This document shows positions 36,387 through 45,774 of a stretch of 64,000 nt of DNA, piece after piece (the first letter of the stretch is position 1; each line of letters begins with the position of its first letter). A program made the translations under genes and the position numbers. A model generated the notes under the pieces. The model did no database searches, had not been told where the DNA came from, and saw nothing but the letters and a program-made list of their open reading frames with translations. The DNA comes from Cellulosimicrobium cellulans (lineage in GTDB: Bacteria > Actinomycetota > Actinomycetes > Actinomycetales > Cellulomonadaceae): assembly GCF_016921195.1 (NCBI RefSeq), contig NZ_JAFGYF010000001.1, positions 682,001 to 746,000 on the forward strand, written 5' to 3'.

Positions 36387-36400
36387 TGACAGCGCTGTCG
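36387..36400. promoter_or_regulatory. LacI-type operator (copy 1) at the start of the 1325-residue enzyme gene
   Basis: TGACAGCGCTGTCG contains the 12-bp palindrome GACAGCGCTGTC at 36388-36399. It begins 7 bp beyond the minus-strand -10 element, so a bound repressor would cover the start of transcription. Confidence 0.8.
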
Positions 36401-36406
36401 ACATGG

Positions 36407-36435
36407 AGTATAGGCGGCGTTCTCCCGGGAGTGAA
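36407..36435 (-). promoter_or_regulatory. Promoter of the 1325-residue enzyme gene
   Basis: On the minus strand TTCACT (36435-36430), a 17-bp spacer and TATACT (36412-36407). This is the best sigma70-like promoter in the 376-bp gap between 36181 and 36556; the leader RNA would be about 220 nt, without other recognisable structure. Confidence 0.65.
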
Positions 36436-36493
36436 GGGAGCGTCGCGGACTTCGCCCGGTGGACCGCCGTGCGGTGGGCGGCGGGACGACGCA

Positions 36494-36534
36494 GGGGCGG
36501 GCGGGGCCTGGTGCCACCAGGTCCCGCCCGCCCC
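36494..36534 (-). terminator. Terminator of the CUT1 operon
   Basis: A 20-bp inverted repeat (36494-36513 with 36515-36534, one G-U pair) with one central base; it lies 22 bp past the last permease stop on the minus strand and upstream of the next promoter. Confidence 0.85.
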
Positions 36535-36556
36535 CGCGTGCTCGGCTCGGGTGAGG

Positions 36557-37459
36557 TCAGCCCTTGACCGAGCCGGACATGAGGCCCCCGACGAAGTACT
36601 TGCCGAGGACGATGTACACGAGCAGCGTCGGCAGCGACGCGAAGAGCGCGCCGGCCATGGAGACGCCGTAGTTCTGCAGGAGCGCGCCGTTCGCGAGGTT
36701 GTTCAGCGCGAGCGTCACGGGGCCGTTCTGGCTGGAGGAGAAGAACACGGCGAAGAGGAAGTCGTTCCACGCCGACGTGAACTGCCAGATGAGCACGACC
36801 ACGAAGCTCGGGATCGAGATCGGCAGGATGATCGACCAGTACGTGCGCAGCATCCCGGCGCCGTCGACGCGCGCGGCCTCGACGAGCTCGTGCGGCACGG
36901 TCATGTAGTAGTTGCGGAAGATGAGCGTCGTGATCGGGATGCCGTAGATCACGTGCAGCAGGATCAGCGACGGAACGCCGCTCGGGATCCCCATGTCCAG
37001 CACGAGCTGGTTGAGCGGGATCATCACGGCCTGGTAGGGGATGAACATCCCGAAGAGGATGAGCGTGAAGACGATGTTCGCGCCCTTGAAGGACCAGCGC
37101 GAGAGCACGAACCCGTTGAGCGAGCCGAGGAACGCGGCGATGATCGCCGACGGCACGACCATCTGCACGGTGCGCCAGATCGCGGGCGACAGCGCGGTCC
37201 ACGCGGTCTGCCAGTTCTCGAGCGTCCACACCTGCGGGAGCGACCACGCGCGCGCCGGGGAGGCGTCGCCCGCGCCCTTGAAGCTCGTCACGAAGAGCAC
37301 GTAGACGGGGATGAGGACGATGACGAGGAAGAAGATCAGCGCGGCGTACTTGAGCGTGCGGCCGACGGAGAACCGCTCGCGGGTCAGGCGACGCGCGGCG
37401 TCGCGCGGGGTGCCGAGGACGTCGGGAGCGGGGACGGCCGGCGTCGAGGTGGTCGTCAT
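36557..37459 (-). CDS. CUT1 sugar ABC transporter permease (MalG-type)
   Basis: A 300-residue permease with a 35-residue hydrophilic N terminus, six hydrophobic segments, and the EAA loop VEAARVDGAGMLRTYWSIIL (about residues 195-215). The C terminus ends YFVGGLMSGSVKG. ATG 37459 overlaps the stop of the first permease (ATGA). It is the last gene of a binding protein, permease, permease operon without its own ATPase. Location beside the GH92 and unassigned enzyme genes, and the LacI-type operator upstream of the operon, suggest import of oligosaccharides released by these enzymes. Confidence 0.93.
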   Translation of the reverse strand: MTTTSTPAVPAPDVLGTPRDAARRLTRERFSVGRTLKYAALIFFLVIVLIPVYVLFVTSFKGAGDASPARAWSLPQVWTLENWQTAWTALSPAIWRTVQMVVPSAIIAAFLGSLNGFVLSRWSFKGANIVFTLILFGMFIPYQAVMIPLNQLVLDMGIPSGVPSLILLHVIYGIPITTLIFRNYYMTVPHELVEAARVDGAGMLRTYWSIILPISIPSFVVVLIWQFTSAWNDFLFAVFFSSSQNGPVTLALNNLANGALLQNYGVSMAGALFASLPTLLVYIVLGKYFVGGLMSGSVKG

Positions 37460-38358
37460 CGCTTCTCCTGACGGTTGGTGCGGATCAGGTAGGGCACGAT
37501 GACCACGGCCACGATGATCAGCAGGATCGAGCCGACCGCCGCCGCGTTGGCGTAGTCGAAGCTCGACTTGAACACGTACATGTCGACGGCCGGCACCTTG
37601 GTCTGGTAGTTCGCGGGCTTCGAGATCGACATGATGAGGTCGAACGCCTTGAGCGACATGTGGCCGATGATGATGAGCGCCGAGAGCGCGATGGGCGAGA
37701 GCTGCGGGAAGAGCACGTGGCGGTACAGCTTCCACTCGCTCGCGCCGTCCATGCGCGCGGCCTCGCGGAGCTCGTCGGGGATGCCGCGGAACCCGGCGAG
37801 GAACAGCGCCATCACGTAGCCGGAGAGCTGCCAGATGGCGGGGATCGCGATGGCCGTGATGCCCCACGTGACGTTGTTCCACCAGTTGTTCTGCAGGAAG
37901 TCGAGGCCGACGATCTGGAACAGCCGGTTGAGGCCGCTGGCCTGCTCGCCCTGGTTCGAGTTGAGCAGCCAGCGCCACACGACACCGGAGGCGACGAACG
38001 ACACGGCCATGGGGAACAGGTAGATCGAGCGGAAGATCCCCTCGCCCTTGACGGGCTTGTCCAGCATCCACGCCCAGAGGAAGCCCATGACGAGCGTCCC
38101 CACGAGGAAGACGACGGTGTAGAGGACGAGGTTCTTCAGCGAGTGCTGGAACGCCTCGCTGCCGAGCAGGTCGGTGTAGTTCTCGAACCAGACGACCACG
38201 GACGGCTTCTGCCCGGTGGCCTGCGCCGCGGTGTGGTTGTCCGTGATCGACGTCCGGAAGTTCGCGCCGATGAGGCCGTAGACGAACACGCCGACGAGGA
38301 TCAGCGAGGGGGCGAGCAGCAGCAGCGCTGGGCCGGCTCGTCGCAGTGACTTGAGCAT
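37456..38358 (-). CDS. CUT1 sugar ABC transporter permease (MalF-type)
   Basis: A 300-residue permease with six hydrophobic segments and EAA loop EAARMDGASEWKLYRHVLFP near residues 205-225. The ATG at 38358 gives the standard short N terminus MLKSLRRAGPALLLLAPSLI. It is separated from the binding-protein gene by 139 bp containing a strong hairpin, and coupled by overlap to the second permease. Confidence 0.93.
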   Translation of the reverse strand: MLKSLRRAGPALLLLAPSLILVGVFVYGLIGANFRTSITDNHTAAQATGQKPSVVVWFENYTDLLGSEAFQHSLKNLVLYTVVFLVGTLVMGFLWAWMLDKPVKGEGIFRSIYLFPMAVSFVASGVVWRWLLNSNQGEQASGLNRLFQIVGLDFLQNNWWNNVTWGITAIAIPAIWQLSGYVMALFLAGFRGIPDELREAARMDGASEWKLYRHVLFPQLSPIALSALIIIGHMSLKAFDLIMSISKPANYQTKVPAVDMYVFKSSFDYANAAAVGSILLIIVAVVIVPYLIRTNRQEKR

Positions 38359-44431: not shown

Positions 44432-45582
44432 TGATGGTGATGCAGGGGGAGAGCACGGGCACGCTCCCACCGGGTGAGGTCCCGGCCACGGCGCCGGACG
44501 GCTCGACGGGCGGTTCGACGGGCGGTTCGACCGACCCGGCGGCGCGCCCCCACTCGGGACGAGGGGGCCGCCGGCCCACCCTCGCGGCCGTCGCGGAGGT
44601 CGCGGGCGTGAGCCTCAAGACGGCGTCGCGCGTGCTCAACGACGAGCCCAACGTGGCGCCGCAGACGCGGGCCAAGGTGCAGGAGGCCGCGCAGCGCCTC
44701 GGCTTCCGCCGCAACGCGGTCGCGGCCGACCTGGCGCGCGGCGGCTCGTCGCGGCTCGTCGGCTTCGTCACCGGCGACCTCGCGAACCCGTTCTACTCCG
44801 CGCTCGCGAGCGGGATCGAGCGCGAGCTGCGCCACCACGGGCTCCAGCTCATCACGACGAGCTCCGACGAGGAGCCCGAGCGCGAGCGCTCGCTCACCGA
44901 GGCGCTCGTCGAGCGCCGCGTCGGCGCGCTCGTCGTGACGCCGACGTCGACCGACCACTCGTCGCTGCGTCGCGAGCTCGACGACGGCCTGCCCGTCGTC
45001 TTCATCGACCGTCCGGCGCAGGGTGTCGACGCGGACACCGTCGTCATCGACAACCGCGGCGGCGTGCGGGACGCCGTGACCCACCTGCTCGCGCACGGGC
45101 ACCGGCGCATCGCGCTCGTCGGCGACGTCTCGCGCCTGTGGACGTTCCAGGAGCGCCGCGACGAGTTCGTCGCGACGCTGCGCGGCGCCGGGGTCGAGGA
45201 CCCGACGCGGTACGTGCGCGACGGCGCCCACGACGCGGAGCTCGCGCACGCGTTCGTGGCGGAGCTCCTGGCCCTGCCCGAGCCGCCGACGGCGTTCGTC
45301 ACGGCGAACAACAAGATCACGGTCGGCGCGCTCCACGCGCTGCGCGACCGGGCGGCCGCGGGCGGACCGAGGGACGTAGCGCTCGTGGGTTTCGACGACT
45401 TCGAGCTCGCCGACCTCCTCGACGTGACCGTCGTCGGGTACGACGTGGTCGAGATGGGTCGCCAGGCCGCGGCGCTCGCGGTGTCGCGGGCGGAGAACCC
45501 GGAGCTCGCCCCGCGCCTCGTCGTGGTGCCCACGCGGCTCGTCGTGCGCGGGACGGGCGAGATCCCCGGGCCCGGTGCGTAG
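44431..45582 (+). CDS. LacI family transcriptional regulator, probable repressor of the glycan locus
   Basis: A 383-residue regulator. The helix-turn-helix TLAAVAEVAGVSLKTASRVLNDEPNV starts only at about residue 50, after an unusual Ser/Gly/Thr-rich leader with GGSTGGSTGGST; the in-frame starts available are clustered at 44431-44440, so the leader is real. The hinge (AVAADLARGG) and the periplasmic-binding-like effector domain are complete. GGGAGGT at 44421 is the ribosome site. LacI proteins bind palindromes with a central CG, as in TGACAGCGCTGTCA found three times in this locus, one of them 180 bp downstream of this gene. Assignment of those sites to this protein is inference. Confidence 0.92.
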   Translation: MMVMQGESTGTLPPGEVPATAPDGSTGGSTGGSTDPAARPHSGRGGRRPTLAAVAEVAGVSLKTASRVLNDEPNVAPQTRAKVQEAAQRLGFRRNAVAADLARGGSSRLVGFVTGDLANPFYSALASGIERELRHHGLQLITTSSDEEPERERSLTEALVERRVGALVVTPTSTDHSSLRRELDDGLPVVFIDRPAQGVDADTVVIDNRGGVRDAVTHLLAHGHRRIALVGDVSRLWTFQERRDEFVATLRGAGVEDPTRYVRDGAHDAELAHAFVAELLALPEPPTAFVTANNKITVGALHALRDRAAAGGPRDVALVGFDDFELADLLDVTVVGYDVVEMGRQAAALAVSRAENPELAPRLVVVPTRLVVRGTGEIPGPGA

Positions 45583-45673
45583 CGAGGGGCGTCGCCCCCG
45601 GGGCGTCCCCGGGGCCGCCCACGTCGCGCGGACGGCGGTCCTCGTGGACGTCCCGTCCGGGCGTCCGGCCGCG

Positions 45674-45703
45674 TTGACAAAGCCCGGTACCGCCACATAA
45701 GTT
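45674..45703 (+). promoter_or_regulatory. Promoter of the GH92 gene
   Basis: TTGACA (45674-45679), 18-bp spacer, TAAGTT (45698-45703). Transcription would start near 45710, giving a leader of about 85 nt that carries a hairpin and the operator. Confidence 0.6.
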
Positions 45704-45709
45704 CAGGTC

Positions 45710-45748
45710 GCCCCTGACAACGCTTCCCCCCTGCGCGTTGTCAGGGGC
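45710..45748 (+). terminator. 14-bp hairpin at the start of the GH92 leader
   Basis: GCCCCTGACAACGC (45710-45723) pairs perfectly with GCGTTGTCAGGGGC (45735-45748) around an 11-nt C-rich loop. It can act as a terminator for lacI, an attenuator for GH92, or a second operator, since each arm holds TGACA or TGTCA half-sites like those of the LacI-type operator. Confidence 0.7.
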
Positions 45749-45760
45749 ACCCCTGCAGCC

Positions 45761-45774
45761 TGACAGCGCTGTCA
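45761..45774. promoter_or_regulatory. LacI-type operator (copy 3), perfect palindrome, upstream of GH92
   Basis: TGACAGCGCTGTCA, a perfect 14-bp palindrome, ends 21 bp before the GH92 start codon and lies downstream of the predicted transcription start, where binding would block elongation. Confidence 0.82.

Follow-up and report, generated by a model that had tools for sequence, protein, structure and literature searches.

Comparison of a 64-kb stretch of DNA from Cellulosimicrobium cellulans (the whole of which is termed the window) with related genomes indicated that a palindrome present there in three exact copies is very probably the operator of the LacI-family regulator encoded at 44431-45582 (plus strand), and that this protein would control an alpha-mannan and N-glycan regulon which includes a predicted secreted protein, U (32203-36180, minus strand; 1325 aa). 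In the mechanism proposed from these sequence comparisons, TGACARCGYTGTCA would be bound by a LacI dimer at the U and GH92 promoters when no inducer is present, either directly after the -10 element or in the leader, thereby blocking transcription until a product of alpha-mannan degradation, either mannose or a short alpha-manno-oligosaccharide, freed the repressor. The predicted regulon would serve alpha-mannan and N-glycan utilisation through three GH92 genes, including that for CcMan5, and a CUT1 importer, with a mannose isomerase, mannose-6-phosphate isomerase or PL8 lyase added in some species. The interpretation given in an earlier note on this DNA proved mostly right, and is amended here with respect to a ROK regulator, a CUT2 importer, the middle copy of the palindrome and a split dyad in the GH92 leader.

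Exact copies of GACAGCGCTGTC were confirmed at 36388, 40007 and 45762, as against 0.04 expected per resample and a maximum of one copy in 100 first-order Markov resamples of the window; with up to two mismatches there was no excess in the window (nine found, 9.25 expected). A different 12-mer palindrome, GCCGTCGACGGC, likewise has three copies in the window (74% GC), and a threefold 12-mer palindrome alone is consequently not unique. The three candidate operators are TGACAGCGCTGTCG (operator 1, 36387-36400), positioned over the likely U transcription start as judged from the sequence and an alignment footprint; TGACAGCGCTGTCC (operator 2, 40006-40019), in the gap that separates the CUT1 unit from the divergent ROK-CUT2-LacI unit; and TGACAGCGCTGTCA (operator 3, 45761-45774), the perfect 14-mer previously reported at the GH92 gene, located just 5' of its ribosome binding site (45780-45786). 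A search of Rfam detected no RNA family within 36100-45900.

The claim that one copy precedes each of three transcription units held for U and for GH92, but not for the middle copy, which lies between divergent promoters. The U promoter (36407-36435, minus strand) was found as described, with TTCACT at 36430-36435 separated by 17 bp from TATACT at 36407-36412; it ends 6 bp before the palindrome and is conserved in six of the ten true U loci aligned, a further row (L051) being a spurious match to the shared C-terminal domain. The GH92 promoter (45674-45703, plus strand) consists of TTGACA at 45674-45679, invariant in 18/18 aligned loci, and a -10 region, CATAAGTT, at 45696-45703, within which C-TA-GTT is invariant. 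Between this promoter and operator 3 lies a split dyad, GCCCCTGACAACGC-N11-GCGTTGTCAGGGGC (45710-45748, plus strand), a candidate either for half-operators or for a leader hairpin (-27.9 kcal/mol).

Gene content agreed with the earlier note as regards GH92, the CUT1 importer, U and a LacI gene within the locus, while a ROK regulator and a CUT2 importer had been overlooked. The CUT1 unit, on the minus strand, encodes a sugar-binding protein (38498-39796; SBP_bac_1, with a lipoprotein-like start by eye) and two BPD_transp_1 permeases (37456-38358, and 36557-37459, the latter with a weak MalG match), the combination characteristic of such importers; no ATPase gene is present in the unit (36557-39796), the partner ATPase of CUT1 importers being often encoded elsewhere. 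Its likely promoter (39893-39921, minus strand) has TTGACA at 39916-39921, invariant in 14/14 aligned loci, and after 17 bp TTGTAT at 39893-39898, which is not invariant. Divergent from it on the plus strand, after a possible -10 element (TATCCT, 40090-40095), are genes for the ROK-family regulator (40103-41287; ROK domain plus winged helix) and a CUT2 importer reading into the LacI gene: a sugar-binding protein (41284-42417; Peripla_BP_4, XylF-like though below the XylF cut-off), an ATPase (42414-43226; ABC_tran) and a permease (43223-44431; BPD_transp_2). Operator 2 is 84 bp from the CUT1 -35 element and 70 bp from the possible ROK -10, and was therefore rejected as a simple block of either divergent promoter; in the 14 aligned loci it is present at up to one mismatch in nine and at two mismatches in two, and is lacking in three.

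The scan for clustering with mannoside genes that the earlier note had called for was extended from the host genome to the genus. In the host genome (4.58 Mb), TGACAGCGCTGTCA has six matches at up to one mismatch, the reversed-letter control giving one: three are in the window, one precedes each of two other GH92 genes, such that all three GH92 genes have a site, and one is inside xseB. Across 17 genus genomes there were 107 sites, of which 58 precede GH92 genes, 54 of the 107 lying 0.5-2.4 kb before the catalytic domain where 0.2 would be expected; 14 precede U genes, nine occupy the importer/ROK gap, nine are at PL8, mannose-isomerase-type or binding-protein genes, 11 fall inside the start of xseB, and six are near genes without a clear link and are unexplained. 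The xseB site by eye codes for F-D-N-A-V-T and was rejected as regulatory, its retention being probably due to coding constraint on the protein. Conversely, 50 of the 78 genus GH92 genes (a count for which 17 second-segment rows were merged into their genes) have a site, and 28 have none in the range tested; among these 28, three have one slightly further upstream, ten are of a short, lower-scoring type never found with a site, and five follow another GH92 gene in tandem. PL8-type lyase genes have a site in 5/17 genomes (Pfam was run on two of the five), an isomerase homologue has its own in 2/17, and one genome (G007) has none at up to two mismatches in 20 kb of the main locus. Many of the loci compared come from close relatives, and the counts are not independent. 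Since the sites cluster with mannoside genes genome-wide, and precede genes of a single sugar pathway, the regulon reading is supported.

The protein encoded at 44431-45582 belongs to the LacI family by its helix-turn-helix (PF00356 at 48.7 bits, over the cut-off) and its Peripla_BP effector domains, and matched CcpA, PurR and LacI in the PDB. Its recognition helix, SLKTASRVLN, carries a Leu-Lys pair not found in any other of the 30 LacI genes of the host genome. It is the likely reader of the palindrome because the site follows Leu-Lys LacI proteins, which adjoin it in 10/13 cases (6/9 in the genus, 4/4 in other genera), three genus genes being without an adjoining site, versus 0/28 for the remainder, comprising 0/24 without Lys at the second specificity position and 0/4 with another residue before Lys. 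In Oerskovia flava, the U and LacI genes are divergent with a site in between. The 20 genomes encoding a LacI protein of at least 66% identity contain 2-10 sites each, compared with 0-3 in the 15 family genomes that lack one (Mann-Whitney p 5e-7, uncorrected for kinship); at the level of the order, genomes lacking a close LacI contain up to four.

The window GH92 gene (45796-51273, plus strand) codes for a secreted multi-domain protein assigned to its family by PF07971 (446 bits), PF17678 (122 bits) and TIGR01180 (over the cut-off). It is close to the alpha-1,2-mannosidase NnGH92 (PDB 7nsn), matching residues 29-1326 with 1303 bits, but runs 500 residues further into a PKD-like stretch (below the cut-off) and a genus C-terminal domain. 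The product of another gene, GH92_c, is nearly identical (1656 bits) to the crystallised CcMan5/CcGH92 from Cellulosimicrobium cellulans (PDB 2xsg, 4aq0), but that gene lies on another contig, outside the window; it has a predicted operator at its start. Downstream of the window GH92 gene, an N-acylglucosamine 2-epimerase family protein (51424-52719, plus strand), below the NCBIfam cut-off for D-mannose isomerase, is probably such an isomerase.

U has a signal-peptide-like start (by eye), an N-terminal region of some 600 aa, F5/8 type C modules and a C-terminal repeat domain. The N-terminal region (approximately residues 37-640; 34260-36072, minus strand) matched no Pfam family at E up to 10, and neither Lyase_8 nor GH92 domains were detected in U by Pfam or profile comparison. 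Profile probabilities against PL8 and GH92 alignments were 0.1-0.8%, with 0.1% for a reversed PL8 control; kinship with PL8 (best 0.8%, with the U alignment, P 0.065) or, after adding distant homologues, with GH92 (0.8%, P 0.074) was not significant, nor was a local match of 31 columns (2.4%, P 0.019). Queries of the PDB with U, with its profile and with two distant homologues yielded F5/8C-type and other weak matches lying outside the core, or no match at all; a ribonucleotide reductase match (E 3) was dismissed as chance. When 396 genomes of the phylum were searched by profile, the own genome alone was returned, and a single-sequence search of 394 class genomes, probably a different draw, returned seven including the own, three of them weak.

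That the palindrome ties U to alpha-mannoside genes, as previously proposed, was borne out beyond synteny. Among 29 homologous U loci named, from Cellulosimicrobium to Micromonospora and Streptomyces, 24 have an exact GACARCGYTGTC within 600 bp upstream and 27 have a site there at up to one mismatch, versus 204/5510 control windows; the two lacking it are Isoptericola L088 and Actinacidiphila L101. The shared site suggests a purpose for U, which we infer to be a secreted carbohydrate-active enzyme of the alpha-mannan system, from a catalytic family that Pfam does not cover. It is close to an even question whether U founds an undescribed family of actinobacterial secreted enzymes for fungal or yeast mannan, tied to Leu-Lys LacI operators almost wherever it is found and possibly attacking acidic or phosphorylated mannan parts closed to GH92. 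Somewhat short of an even chance is given to the reading that U, while within the regulon, targets a side group, or some different polymer found together with mannan, such as glucuronic acid branches, instead of the mannan chain: PL8-type lyases, whose genes have the operator in five genomes, might act on such branches, and U has for neighbours a GH97 gene at L087 and, at L101, a GH130-like gene, but the similarity of U to PL8 did not rise above the reversed control. Polysaccharide lyase family 8 resembles U in being secreted and in having a large N-terminal part with F5/8C modules.

With regard to the palindrome itself, a chance or structural repeat of no regulatory role, as the high GC and the second threefold 12-mer might suggest, is scarcely credible given that it precedes GH92 genes and U in several genera and leaves footprints within diverged flanks. 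ROK regulators with a winged helix control sugar genes, and here operator 2 lies 84 bp from the start of the ROK gene, which is retained next to LacI at 76-100% identity; that the ROK protein reads the palindrome, leaving LacI a different target, for instance the CUT2 importer, is nonetheless improbable, since the site follows the LacI recognition helix, is missing from the CUT1-ROK gap in L052, L055 and L056 despite a ROK protein at 90-92% there, and in L059 and L096 accompanies LacI and GH92 or U where nothing within about 8 kb matches ROK. Joint action, in which LacI would occupy the operators and ROK the conserved promoter of CUT1 such that the importer answers two signals, is a tentative proposal that we consider rather doubtful: the CUT1 -35 element and its flanks are conserved in 14/14 loci even where the LacI site is lost, and a further dyad adjoins, but no ROK operator was identified and the promoter alone could explain the conservation. 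Also against ROK as reader, and in favour of LacI, the palindrome is of even length and has CG at its centre, like most LacI-family motifs according to Ravcheev et al. (2014; PMC4052901), where the local ManR mannose/mannoside regulons show like features: a LacI regulator, a central-CG palindrome, and an importer plus glycosidases under one motif. Among the titles and abstracts listed from the open PMC literature, none dealt with GH92 genes of Cellulosimicrobium under a LacI regulator; the 14-mer string was matched to one open paper, on mannitol switches.

Cellulosimicrobium is a genus known for yeast-lytic enzymes. For its alpha-mannan system, the palindrome read by LacI would provide a working operator code in the source genus of CcMan5, and the pairing of Leu-Lys with TGACA half-sites a natural test of the LacI recognition code. 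For U, an enzyme candidate without a family, it yields the testable hypothesis that a regulatory site predicts substrate class in seven genera: a switch sequence that in a soil bacterium would mark the genes for using sugars rich in mannose, for example yeast and fungal ones.

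The exact 12-mer palindrome GACAGCGCTGTC, which the earlier note had placed once before each of three transcription units, was recovered at 36388, 40007 and 45762 (sites 1, 2 and 3) against an expectation of 0.04 per Markov resample of the window, and the flank-extended 14-mers departed from TGACAGCGCTGTCA by 1, 1 and 0 mismatches, respectively; the promoter claimed ahead of site 1 was likewise found as described. Outward from site 2 on the minus strand runs the CUT1 importer, with one binding-protein gene and two permease genes, followed by site 1 and U, an unassigned secreted protein of 1325 aa (32203..36180). 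The plus strand carries a ROK regulator (40103-41287), the binding protein, ATPase and permease of a second importer, CUT2, and the LacI-family regulator (44431-45582), downstream of which lie site 3, the GH92 gene (45796..51273) and a probable mannose isomerase gene. Because the ROK, CUT2 and LacI genes overlap, LacI probably belongs to the transcription unit that has site 2 in its upstream region.

A scan of the whole genome allowing up to one mismatch returned six sites (one with the reversed control), and bore out the anticipated clustering with mannoside genes. Besides the three of the window, there is one ahead of a GH92 gene of 944 aa (L037), while another marks the start of the 1709-aa GH92 gene (L039) whose product is near-identical to CcMan5, the crystallised GH92 of this species. 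The genome holds exactly three GH92 genes (four domain matches, two in one gene). The sixth site lies in the start of a gene named xseB by inspection of its sequence.

Across 17 Cellulosimicrobium genomes, 107 sites were recorded against 3 reversed-control sites. Of the 107, 54 lay 0.5-2.4 kb ahead of one of 78 GH92 domains (0.2 expected), and, with 17 second-segment domain rows merged into their genes, 50 of 78 GH92 genes had a site. Three further sites at genes with longer N-termini and one at a GH92 gene cut by a contig end brought those preceding GH92 genes to 58/107. Among the 28 GH92 genes scored as lacking a site were 10 of a short type (261-289 bits) and 5 in tandem behind another GH92. 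Manual sorting assigned the remaining 49 sites to U (14), xseB (11), the CUT1-ROK gap (9), PL8-type lyases (5), mannose isomerase (2), mannose-6-phosphate isomerase (1) and a CUT1-type binding protein (1); for six no connection was evident (GH43, CotH, beta-lactamase-like, multicopper oxidase, a protein bearing the C-terminal domain of the genus, and one within an ORF). In a genome of another genus (G022), 4 of 9 sites stood ahead of genes for two GH76 enzymes, one GH97 and one binding protein.

The site-like sequence at the xseB start (L038 5671) is kept in 11 of the 17 genomes, probably through coding constraint. PL8-type lyases stand under the palindrome in 5 of the 17, two being called by Pfam (L146, L130) and three by like size, place and similarity (L158, L174, L188); that of L146 has three F5/8C modules and is divergent from an M20 peptidase gene. 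In another family (L065 and G052:C3:409355), a related LacI gene and a GH92 gene have a PL8 gene ~9-10 kb away, an arrangement that might serve xanthan or glucuronomannan use.

Two comparisons bear on which regulator reads the palindrome. In the 20 genomes whose LacI reached 66% identity or more, 2-10 sites were counted, and in 15 other family genomes 0-3 (p 5e-7, kinship uncorrected); this comparison set aside G020 and G025 (best LacI 48 and 51%; 7 and 2 sites) as well as the 22 order-level genomes, which had 0-4 sites. Leu-Lys, at positions taken as AA-15 and AA-16 on the numbering of Camas et al. (PMC2978694), occurred in 13 of 41 LacI-type ORFs of the fetched loci, as caught by an incomplete filter that missed some LacI genes, the window's among them. 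TGACA-NCGN-TGTCA (up to one mismatch) adjoined 10 of these 13 and 0 of the 28 others. Nine of the 13 were Cellulosimicrobium orthologues, 6 of them with the site; the remaining four came from other genera, and all 4 had it. Among the 30 LacI genes of the own genome, Leu-Lys was confined to the window's LacI, and the single Ile-Lys gene had no palindrome site close by.

Judged by operator position, LacI would act as a repressor at the palindromes. The U operator begins 6 bp past the -10 and thus covers the likely transcription start; among the 10 true U loci in the alignment, 6 keep this promoter, and three of the others (L047, L048, L049) retain the palindrome with changed flanks. The GH92 -35 was invariant in 18/18 loci. 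Three loci (L054, L055, L056) have a full operator shortly behind the GH92 -10, a place occupied in the window by a split dyad, TGACAACGC-N11-GCGTTGTCA, with the full operator just ahead of the ribosome binding site. The dyad (45710-45748), which lies between promoter and operator and is a perfect inverted repeat of 14 bp around an 11-base loop, may represent two half-operators or a leader hairpin; it was near-identical in 11 of 18 aligned rows and degenerate or lost in the rest. The promoter elements closest to site 2 are a possible ROK -10 at 70 bp and the CUT1 -35 at 84 bp; the site could act by looping or on an unseen promoter. The CUT1 promoter region (39860-39925) was unusually conserved in 14 aligned loci, nearly all of which, those that lost the LacI site included, have an adjoining GGGCGC-N6-GCGCCC dyad, a possible ROK operator.

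A single scan across named genomes turned up 29 loci homologous to U, in Cellulosimicrobium, Isoptericola, Oerskovia, Promicromonospora, Microbacterium, Agromyces, Micromonospora, Actinacidiphila, Streptomyces and a record labelled Sphaerisporangium. Within 600 bp upstream of U, GACARCGYTGTC was exact in 24 of the 29 and had one mismatch in 3 more, against 204 of 5510 random windows from the same loci reaching one mismatch, real sites partly included. L088 and L101 had no such site within that distance; in L088 a two-mismatch site lies 3.6 kb upstream, behind the importer. The form varied by host: Promicromonospora has TGACAGCGCTGTCA, Microbacterium and Agromyces have TGACAGCGTTGTCA, and 7 of 10 Micromonospora loci have TGACAACGTTGTCA. 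In L087 (5803-9525) a GH97 gene absent from the window stands between the CUT1 permease and U, and L043, L044 and L045 have a gap of similar size.

The protein is uncommon (7 of 394 class genomes including its own, 3 being weak matches) and conserved (23 sequences, 49-96% identity to that of the window). Residues ~37-640 matched no Pfam family even at E 10, PDB searches gave F5/8C-type modules only, weak matches aside, and comparison with PL8 and GH92 profiles revealed no relation above control. We infer that U is an enzyme from its size and secretion, together with its sugar-binding-type modules and gene company.

U (32206-32521) and GH92 (50968-51270) share a C-terminal domain of ~100 residues with no Pfam match at E <=1 and sub-threshold NCBIfam matches only. 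With the GH92 copy as query, 46 copies were counted in the own genome, 25-64 per genome in the 17 Cellulosimicrobium, 36 in an Oerskovia (G026) and 0-4 in each of the 41 others among the 59 genomes searched; the domain may serve secreted enzymes as a tail for sorting, anchoring or wall binding.

LacI regulons for sugar use are of an ordinary kind, and CcMan5 and its use are already known; the literature searched yielded no paper on its regulation. What is new is how far the regulon extends, together with the regulatory link that joins the unassigned U protein family to it.
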